Positions 5,499 through 35,466 of a stretch of DNA of 57,709 nucleotides are shown here, in pieces. Source of the DNA: an uncultured Lachnospiraceae bacterium. Lineage in GTDB: Bacteria; Bacillota; Clostridia; Lachnospirales; Lachnospiraceae. The notes under the pieces are model-generated. The model worked only from the letters and a program-made list of their open reading frames with translations, had not been told where the DNA came from and made no database searches. Location: assembly GCA_900317585.1 (NCBI GenBank), contig ONHG01000017.1:1-57709 (forward strand), read 5' to 3'. Within the stretch, counting starts at the first letter, position 1, and each line of letters opens with the position of its first letter. Made by a program: the position numbers and the translations under genes.

Positions 5499-7247
5499 AT
5501 GGCAGGGCCAAAAGCACCAAAGGATCCCGAAAGAAAAAGACCGTATTTCTACATCATGAAGGATAAGGATATATACGGCTCAGTACAGGAAGATGGAAGC
5601 ATTATACATTTTATATATGAAAGCGACGGAAGACTGATAAACAGTGCACAAATAGCCGGAAATATAGAAAATAAAGAGGAACTGGGGCTGTTAGAGACGG
5701 TGGAAGGTTTTGGCAGGCTTGTACACAGCATAGGTGTATCTGTGGAAACAGATAATCAAAACGAACAGATCGAATTTGTGTTTCAGATGTACGGAAAGCA
5801 GGACCTGTACGGAGGCGGTACTAATCTTAAGGTAAAGCTGACAGGCGATGGAATGGAGAGAAAGATATACCTGTCAGATTATAAGTGGACACCGGATGAT
5901 GATATACCGGGACAGATAAAGTTCATATTTAATACACCGGATATCATGGGAAAAGCGAGTGTCAGACTGTATCTGAATGACGGCTATGAGGCTCCGGCAG
6001 ATATTGAGGAAACAGAGGTGGATATGAACTCTGATGAATACTGCAGCATGATAAGCCATTCGCTTATGAATATGGGAAATGCATACCGCATAAGAAAAGC
6101 CATCGAAAAGACAAAAGCCGGAAAAGAGGTAACACTTGCATACATCGGTGGATCTATCACACAGGGAGCAGGTGCGACACCTATAAATACAGAGTGCTAC
6201 GCATACAAATCCTATCAGCTTTTCCAGAGGCGTTTTTCTGCAAAGAATAATGTGAAATTCATAAAAGCCGGTGTGGGTGGCACACCATCGGAGCTGGGAA
6301 TGATCAGATTTGACAGGGATGTACTAAGAGACGGACAGCAGCCTGATATAGTAGTTATTGAATTTGCTGTAAATGATGAGGGGGATGAGACAAAGGGTGA
6401 CTGCTATGAAAGCCTTGTACGTAAAGTACTTAATCTGCCATGGAAACCGGCAGTCATATTGCTTTTTTCCGTATTTGCTAATGACTGGAACCTTCAAGAC
6501 CGCCTAAGCCCGGTTGGAAAGCTCTATGATCTGCCTATGGTAAGCGTGCTGGATGCGGTTTCCCCTCAGTTTGCATTAAAAAATGACGAGGGAAGGGTAA
6601 TAAGCAAAAATCAGTTTTTCTATGATATGTTTCATCCGAGCAATGCAGGCCATTCCGTCATGGCAGACTGCATAGAGTATCTTTTTGAAAGAATAGATCA
6701 GGCAGGGCATGCAAGTTTGGATGCATTTGAAAAGGGACTGACAGAGGAAAAAATATTGCAGGAAAACCTAAATCTTGCACCGGTAATAGGAAACAGCTTT
6801 GAAAATATAAGACTGCTCGACAAAAAGGATATATATGCAAAGGCATATATTGACGAGGGTGGCTTCGATTCGACAGATACACAGCTGCAAAGCGTTGAGA
6901 TGGATGATCAGCTTTCGCTGACTCCGGAATTCCCGTATAACTGGATGTATGATGGCACAAAAAATACATTAAACAGGGAAAAAGCGTATTTCGAGCTTGA
7001 GATGGAGTGCAGGGCACTTCTCCTTGTATTTAAGGATTCGGGAGAGGTAAACGTGGGAAAGGCGAAGGTATATGTGGACGGAGAGTATCATTTTACGGCT
7101 GATCCACATATCAATAACTGGCAGCACTGCAATGCGGTAAAAATATTTAACAATAAGACCAGTGAAAATCATGTTGTAAGGATTGAAATTGCAGAGGAAG
7201 ACAGAGACAAGCAGTTTACGATACTGGGCTTTGGATATGTATTATAG
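5499..7247 (+). CDS. SGNH/GDSL-type esterase, probable intracellular xylo-oligosaccharide deacetylase
   Basis: A 582-residue protein with no signal peptide; AAGGAGG lies 7 bases before the ATG. Residues about 1-190 form an N-terminal region I do not recognise with certainty. Residues about 205-395 are an SGNH hydrolase fold: block I GGSITQGAG with nucleophile S219, block III Asn in FAVND, and the catalytic pair D376/H379 in DMFHPSNAGH. A C-terminal beta-rich region follows. The gene sits 19 bp before a GH43 xylosidase gene, which supports removal of acetyl groups from imported xylo-oligosaccharides, but substrate is inferred from context only. The pair has a terminator upstream and probably its own promoter. 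Confidence 0.85.
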   Translation: MAGPKAPKDPERKRPYFYIMKDKDIYGSVQEDGSIIHFIYESDGRLINSAQIAGNIENKEELGLLETVEGFGRLVHSIGVSVETDNQNEQIEFVFQMYGKQDLYGGGTNLKVKLTGDGMERKIYLSDYKWTPDDDIPGQIKFIFNTPDIMGKASVRLYLNDGYEAPADIEETEVDMNSDEYCSMISHSLMNMGNAYRIRKAIEKTKAGKEVTLAYIGGSITQGAGATPINTECYAYKSYQLFQRRFSAKNNVKFIKAGVGGTPSELGMIRFDRDVLRDGQQPDIVVIEFAVNDEGDETKGDCYESLVRKVLNLPWKPAVILLFSVFANDWNLQDRLSPVGKLYDLPMVSVLDAVSPQFALKNDEGRVISKNQFFYDMFHPSNAGHSVMADCIEYLFERIDQAGHASLDAFEKGLTEEKILQENLNLAPVIGNSFENIRLLDKKDIYAKAYIDEGGFDSTDTQLQSVEMDDQLSLTPEFPYNWMYDGTKNTLNREKAYFELEMECRALLLVFKDSGEVNVGKAKVYVDGEYHFTADPHINNWQHCNAVKIFNNKTSENHVVRIEIAEEDRDKQFTILGFGYVL

Positions 7248-35058: not shown

Positions 35059-35100
35059 TACCTCATTATGGATATGATGAGTTATTATTGATATAAGGAC

Positions 35101-35367
35101 GGTCCGCACGCTGCAGGCACGGTGGCGCGCACGTACTCTCTCGTAAGCGCATAGCGAAGCTATTTAGAATCTGTTGAATTATGCTTCACAACCAGAAATG
35201 CACCGGCATGGACGCCGGGGCAAGGTGTTATGCGCCATGGACGGCGCATAAAAGCCGGTTTCGTCAAGCATAGAAAACCAAAAGGCATAATTCCTACAGA
35301 TTCTTAATGGCGTAGCGTAGCTTACGAGAGAGTACGTGTGTGCCGCCGTGCCTGCAGCGTGCGGACC
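35101..35367. repeat. 267-bp giant inverted repeat / structured RNA or MITE-like element
   Basis: The outer arms (35101-35148 and 35320-35367) are inverted copies over 48 bases, starting GGTCCGCACGCTGCAGGCAC. They differ at only three positions, and each difference leaves a G-T pair, so a transcript would still fold. After an internal loop the inner arms pair again (AGAATCTGT with ACAGATTCT; GAATTATGC with GCATAATTC). The centre holds two hairpins with the same ATGGAC loop: CCGGC/GCCGG at 35203-35218 and TTATGCGCC/GGCGCATAA at 35228-35251. It contains no convincing gene. It fits a large structured RNA, a MITE, or a repeat element. Confidence 0.85.
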
Positions 35368-35435
35368 TGTGTACATACAAAATAAACAACATATAAAATA
35401 ACAAGAATAAAAAATATATAAATAATAGTTATAAT

Positions 35436-35466
35436 TTGCCAATTATGCGAATAAATATGCTATAAT
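35436..35466 (+). promoter_or_regulatory. Possible relQ promoter
   Basis: TTGCCA (35436-35441) and a perfect TATAAT (35461-35466) are 19 bases apart, a slightly long spacer, 54 bases ahead of the relQ ATG. Confidence 0.5.

Follow-up and report, generated by a model that had tools for sequence, protein, structure and literature searches.

Dispersed TwoAYGGAY RNAs with very long outer stems in Lachnospiraceae, candidate components of a distributed CsrA sink

A giant inverted repeat at positions 35101–35367 of the window (the entire 57,709-nucleotide stretch of an uncultured Lachnospiraceae bacterium that we analysed) encloses an RNA core that almost certainly belongs to the TwoAYGGAY family, of which the genome carries at least 33 dispersed copies. 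On sequence grounds, we consider it reasonably probable that these copies constitute a dispersed CsrA-binding RNA, in which many loci of two sites each would act as a distributed CsrB-like sink and the outer stem would serve as a clamp. The core is that of a known family, and its copy number and very long arms are what is unusual.

A TwoAYGGAY core inside a giant inverted repeat

Scanning the window with cmscan returned a single match above the gathering score, TwoAYGGAY (RF01731), at 150.1 bits against a threshold of 43. The match lies on the + strand at 35152–35318 and spans model positions 1–168 of 168 (E = 5.9e-28). Outside it are the two arms of the outer stem, both given on the + strand: a 48-nt 5′ arm at 35101–35148 that is 94% complementary to the 3′ arm at 35320–35367. 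Read as + strand RNA, these arms form 45 Watson–Crick and three G–U pairs. Pairing resumes further in, where the 5′ strand of an inner helix (35154–35174, +) is 81% complementary to its 3′ partner (35296–35316, +). The fold and the sequence both place two hairpins at the centre, one at 35199–35222 (+) with an ATGGAC loop at 35208–35213 and one at 35228–35251 (+) with the same loop at 35237–35242, each loop closed by a C–G pair and the two GGAs separated by 26 nt. The preliminary description of this DNA had reported the giant repeat, the G–U nature of all three outer mismatches, the inner pairing and the twin ATGGAC-loop hairpins, and each of these observations was borne out. The + strand RNA of 35090–35380 folds at −182 kcal/mol, as against a shuffled mean of −92.7 (s.d. 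5.2, z = −17.1), and none of 200 shuffles matched its energy. Two open reading frames of at least 80 amino acids touch the element, both on the minus strand: one of 87 amino acids crosses the hairpins, and one of 119 amino acids enters the 5′ arm by nine bases. We judge both to be spurious, in agreement with the earlier statement that no gene explains the repeat.

The suggestion that the repeat encodes an undescribed structured non-coding RNA was half right: the RNA is structured and covaries strongly, but its core is already in Rfam as RF01731. A 2010 table by Weinberg scores TwoAYGGAY as probably an RNA, probably not cis-regulatory (‘n’) and probably not a riboswitch (PMC2864571), and Rfam gives its type as ‘Cis-reg’. 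By the same tool, E. coli CsrB falls in the same Rfam clan as TwoAYGGAY, CL00106. A 2014 paper predicted CsrA binding of the family from motif matches, called its external stem ‘not well conserved’ and described validation as work in progress (PMC4333381). The portions available to us of the literature naming the family contained no experimental test of its function. The literature that we searched contained no description of giant outer arms, their concerted change, high copy number or possible inversion in place, and neither PMC11892184 nor PMC10939037 uses the terms E. rectale, Roseburia or Lachnospir- in its main text. Like the described family (RF01731, PMC2864571), the element has a full-length model match, twin AYGGAY loops and a covarying core; unlike it, the arms in the window genome run a median of about 40 pairs beyond the model, and genomes carry 33–49 copies.

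The RNA is present in many copies in two Lachnospiraceae genomes

The search of Lachnospiraceae genomes that the preliminary description had proposed revealed homologous copies. The window genome holds 33 dispersed matches above the cut-off, a minimum in an assembly of 2.57 Mb in 52 contigs that is 86.6% complete. DNA similarity identified two further partial copies there, on contigs C8 (20113–20228) and C52 (4483–4569, close to the contig end), in each of which part of the core and one arm are missing or replaced. The congener G693, assembled as one contig of 3,449,685 bp, carries 49 copies. At least 45 of 299 genomes in a family-level sample have TwoAYGGAY (up to nine candidates scored per genome), as do at least 36 of 391 in a class-level sample (up to seven scored per genome). 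G693 also contains a tandem triplet of copies (C1:3438472–3439348), and pairs of opposed neighbouring copies occur at G693 C1:613736–614201 and C1:2296099–2296719 and on contig C30 of the window genome (79251–79875). These arrangements suggest local duplication.

The core covaries and its GGA loops are conserved

We aligned 60 trimmed cores, comprising 32 of the 33 copies of the window genome and 28 of 29 loci from relatives (L046 and L063 were excluded). The stems covary: 22 of the 24 consensus core pairs vary on both sides in some sequence, and the only two invariant pairs are the loop-closing pairs, which are C–G in all 60 cores. The bases pair in 94.0% of cells compared with 64.6% after shuffling, and cells with both sides changed number 379 compared with 98, values that none of 500 shuffles reached in either case; a control in which the structure was slid along the alignment gave 34–45% paired. 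These controls ignore kinship and use a structure drawn from the same alignment, which makes them somewhat flattering.

Both loops mostly read ANGGAN, with the GGAs usually 26–27 nt apart. A script that looks for two C-[GGA loop]-G hairpins found them in 30 of 33 copies of the window genome, 41 of 49 in G693 and 20 of 29 in relatives, and the spacing between the GGAs was 26 or 27 nt in 29 of 30, 39 of 41 and 15 of 20 of these, respectively. Among the copies that the script missed are some with mutated loops (ATTGAC in L021 and L046), some with other loop forms and some that reflect failures of the script. A review of CsrA describes contacts of RsmE with an ANGGAN hexaloop hairpin, and reports six-nucleotide loops in 44 of 55 hairpins selected by SELEX for CsrA binding, the AC and GU on either side being paired (PMC7652899). 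The TwoAYGGAY loops mostly have this form, that of the ANGGAN hexaloop hairpins of CsrA/RsmE targets (PMC7652899). CsrA binding by TwoAYGGAY is accordingly a prediction from loop sequence and shape that we regard as likely. The same review notes that a very stable structure might be disadvantageous (PMC7652899).

Outer arms are long, private to each copy and change in concert

Arm pairs were counted with one strict, strand-neutral aligner. The outer stem has a median of 41 pairs in the 33 copies of the window genome (range 23–71), 39 in the 49 copies of G693 (5–55) and 31 at the 29 relative loci (7–92). Arms of at least 25 pairs were found in 32 of 33, 40 of 49 and 22 of 29 copies, respectively, compared with 2 of 283 random flank pairs, whose median was 7. 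Four genomes of other families, assembled in one or two contigs, have shorter arms of 11–29 pairs over 15 stretches. The sequence of the arms varies among the copies of the window genome, and in all 33 the best partner of a 5′ arm is the 3′ arm of the same copy; exchanging arms between copies abolishes pairing, with a median score of 9 over 1,056 swaps compared with 36 for a copy’s own arms. Arms do not evolve more slowly than flanks (5.8% divergence compared with 4.4%). With the 10 arm pairs that fall in gaps set aside, the arms change in concert above chance, and one-sided changes are still more frequent. Concerted change in stems can arise, by a published mechanism, from template switching during replication (PMC8794818). 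The concerted change seen here may reflect hairpin-templated repair, selection that preserves pairing or the two together.

A further feature of the arms is an end motif, CACARCGTAAGG, which lies at the base of the outer stem in 15 of 33 copies of the window genome and 23 of 49 in G693 when at least 10 of its 12 letters are required (examples in the window genome are L003, L006, L009, L015 and L026). With at most one mismatch the motif occurs at 28 places, compared with 11 for the reversed control. At five sites outside the RNA copies (L181–L185) no long inverted repeat was found at the motif; the best self-inverted score was 10–12 at four of them and 22 at L185, away from the motif.

Mismatches suggest some selection on the RNA strand

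A G–U mismatch is tolerated in RNA, and its mirror on the opposite strand is A–C, so the ratio of the two reports on which strand is selected. In the outer arms of G693 this ratio is 52:17 (49 copies, P = 3e-5, an optimistic value since the copies are partly related), and on this evidence we dropped the notion that the arms are strand-symmetric. The ratio is 26:21 over the 33 copies of the window genome and 31:24 over the 29 relative loci, giving 109:62 when pooled; these two sets refute any general claim that all outer-arm mismatches are G–U. The core gives 7:2 in 32 cores of the window genome and 6:13 in 28 cores of relatives, which are less well aligned. A separate count over the core plus hairpins yields 16:4 in the window genome (29 of 33 loci) and 1:4 in relatives (11 of 29 loci). 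The preliminary description had taken the G–U mismatches as a mark of selection for an RNA fold. That interpretation is only partly general: the G–U preference is seen in G693, and is not clear in the window genome or in relatives. We read the whole as some selection on the RNA strand, clearest in the single-contig genome and mixed overall. Cores flipped in draft genomes would be expected to dilute a G–U signal.

The position beside relQ is not conserved

The window copy starts 42 nt past an upstream gene on the same strand. Upstream of the element are a SpoU methylase and an 87-amino-acid protein without a Pfam match, and downstream are a RelA/SpoT-domain protein and an ABC-F-like ATPase. An action on the downstream relQ–ABC-F transcript had been proposed. 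Among 80 relQ loci in public genomes, 48 have the 87-amino-acid gene upstream and none of these 48 carries TwoAYGGAY in the gap; the three model matches found among the 80 loci all lie outside the gap between the 87-amino-acid gene and relQ. Between the element and relQ, moreover, is TGCTATAAT (35458–35466, +), which resembles an extended −10 element by eye, was not called by a consensus scan and may be part of a promoter. The orthologous-gap comparison and this promoter-like sequence both argue against an action on the relQ–ABC-F transcript, and with 0 of 48 gaps occupied we rejected a relQ leader or riboswitch. The congener G693 does have TwoAYGGAY at the window site. In another locus, L095, the gap between the 87-amino-acid gene and relQ (2782–2997) contains a different inverted repeat, with a self-inverted score of 34 and no match to the TwoAYGGAY model.

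A more general cis role would make the element a 3′-UTR or intergenic stabiliser of upstream transcripts or insulator of neighbours, acting through RNase III processing or an exonuclease block, with loops that allow CsrA-dependent control of decay. The placement of the window copy just behind a same-strand gene, the ‘Cis-reg’ type in Rfam and the sparing use of divergent intergenic regions (4 of 33 copies) fit such a role. We nevertheless hold it to be very improbable: the position is not conserved at orthologous gaps, the 2010 table scores the family against cis-regulation (PMC2864571), and antisense copies are about as common as sense copies. Relative to co-directional neighbours, sense and antisense copies in the window genome number 11 and 9 by one gene caller and 14 and 12 by a second, which gives 19 and 17 in G693. 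Both callers are rough and miscalled relQ at the window copy: the first placed spurious minus-strand reading frames beside it, and the second, codon-based and conservative, missed relQ. This lack of an orientation preference would be unexpected of cis elements and says nothing about small RNA genes.

Shared sites point to inherited copies and remnants suggest decay

The preliminary description had offered a MITE-like mobile element as its alternative. The part of this proposal that held is that the element is dispersed and multicopy; no target-site duplication, clean empty site or Y1/RAYT transposase was seen. A non-autonomous palindromic repeat of the REP/BIME or MITE kind could spread through the genome with its fold and loops merely tolerated by an enzyme or the host, and any affinity for CsrA would then be incidental. 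The dispersal in both genomes, the absence of overlap between cores and open reading frames (0 of 33 in the window genome, 0 of 49 in G693, by a rough caller) together with the balanced orientations, the end motif shared by many copies, and the tandem and opposed clusters are all features that such a repeat would show. Weighing against it, 19 of the 33 sites in the window genome are shared with G693 by both flanks; these copies were therefore inherited rather than freshly moved, and any spread has been slow. Inspection by eye of six site comparisons, which showed a half-deleted copy, a replaced copy, a deleted core, a disrupted copy, one cut by the edge of its stretch (L011) and one without a match (L025), revealed neither a target-site duplication nor a clean empty site. 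The Y1/RAYT transposase family PF01797 had no match in the 86.6% complete window genome, which argues against mobilisation by RAYT. A DNA palindrome, finally, would have no need of strand-specific GGA loops and heavy covariation. TwoAYGGAY thus resembles REP/BIME and MITE elements in being a short dispersed palindrome that lies outside called genes and has an end motif. It differs in its strand-specific covarying RNA core, and no target-site duplication was seen and no Y1 transposase found; we regard an origin of this kind as unlikely. At L275 (about 6363–6560, contig C15 of the window genome), comparison with L245 shows that the core has been lost and the two arms joined as a near-perfect palindrome, where the G693 copy is full. 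The partial copies and arm-only remnants suggest decay by deletion.

Some cores appear inverted in place relative to the congener

Among the 19 sites shared with G693, 13 copies have the same orientation in the two assemblies and six have opposite orientations at an unchanged position. One of these six is the window copy: its flanks are 97–98% alike in the two genomes, and its core matches that of G693 on the other strand at 97% identity. The side on which CACARCGTAAGG lies offers a second indicator of polarity. With at least 10 of 12 letters required, it is on the 5′ side in 13 copies of the window genome and on the 3′ side in two (L002 and L171), both of which are among the six inverted sites and had stood out by the placement of their motif before the two genomes were compared. 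In G693 all 23 copies with the motif carry it on the 5′ side, and the other 26 of 49 lack it. A joint orientation score from two motifs left 18 of the 33 copies in the window genome ambiguous and made no call for L002.

The flipped sites represent either real inversions or assembly errors. Were they real, the element could be an invertible cassette in which recombination between the arms, or template switching, flips the core and so switches it between sense and antisense relative to neighbouring transcription. The fraction of shared sites inverted, the coincidence of wrong-side motifs with inverted sites, and flipped site L014, whose arms share no exact match longer than 13 bp and are thus awkward to explain by simple k-mer misassembly, speak for this reading. 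Polarity nevertheless looks fixed in G693, and inverted-repeat loops are easily misassembled in a draft of 52 contigs such as the window genome, so we consider an invertible cassette quite unlikely. The comparison with invertons is divided in the same way: inversion in place between flanking repeats is seen between two assemblies, whereas polarity looks fixed in the single-contig congener and the difference may be an assembly error. A broader proposal, drawn from the sequences, combines these elements into a clostridial distributed CsrA sponge of dozens of two-site cassettes with concerted arms, in which inversion would tune the sink dose of each locus; it is a speculative idea, and we think it rather improbable in this full form.

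TwoAYGGAY genomes tend to encode CsrA

The dispersed CsrA-binding RNA that we favour calls for CsrA in the same cell, and in the window genome csrA lies directly after fliW. A second, divergent CsrA-family gene is located near a flagellin gene on contig C39 (L060, 1366–1635). In the family sample csrA is present in 44 of 45 genomes with TwoAYGGAY and 110 of 254 others (Fisher P = 1.7e-13), and in the class sample in 31 of 36 and 94 of 355 (P = 2e-12), statistics that ignore the kinship of the genomes. In the family sample, flagellin is found in all 45 genomes with TwoAYGGAY and in 111 of the 254 without it, and csrA and flagellin occur together in 151 of 299 genomes. Because flagellin tracks TwoAYGGAY equally well, the link to csrA is inseparable from motility. 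In flagellated Firmicutes, the target of CsrA is chiefly flagellin mRNA, and FliW is a known protein antagonist of CsrA. A csrA match was absent from one of the 45 TwoAYGGAY genomes in the family sample and five of the 36 in the class sample, all of them drafts; other genomes in the genera of the five from the class sample do have csrA, and the absence may be true.

A proposed distributed sink for CsrA

We propose the following model. Each RNA would present two C-(ANGGAN)-G hairpins about 26 nt apart, and these twin hairpins would most likely engage both faces of a single CsrA dimer. Transcripts from the many loci could jointly form a distributed CsrB-like sink or buffer, which would release CsrA targets alongside FliW, an antagonist that is a protein. 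The very long outer stem would be a clamp that closes the RNA and is indifferent to its own sequence. The model starts from what we observed, namely family membership, copy number, covariation, conservation of loops and spacing, concerted arms and the presence of csrA and fliW; transcription, CsrA binding, titration and the role of the stem are the parts that it would add. A consensus scan found no terminator-like site at the end of the element. With CsrB, CsrC and RsmX/Y/Z, TwoAYGGAY shares GGA in hairpin loops, the clan that contains CsrB and a csrA gene in the genome. Those small RNAs carry many sites on one molecule, whereas TwoAYGGAY would have two sites per locus at many loci, and we did not assign it to the CsrB family for this reason.

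The 33 copies described here and the 49 of a single-contig congener make the CsrA prediction of 2014 directly testable. The many paralogous and orthologous pairs that they offer could help to tell templated repair of a palindrome apart from selection for RNA pairing. If the model is true, RNA-based control of CsrA would extend to Clostridia of the gut, in which the antagonist known so far is FliW.
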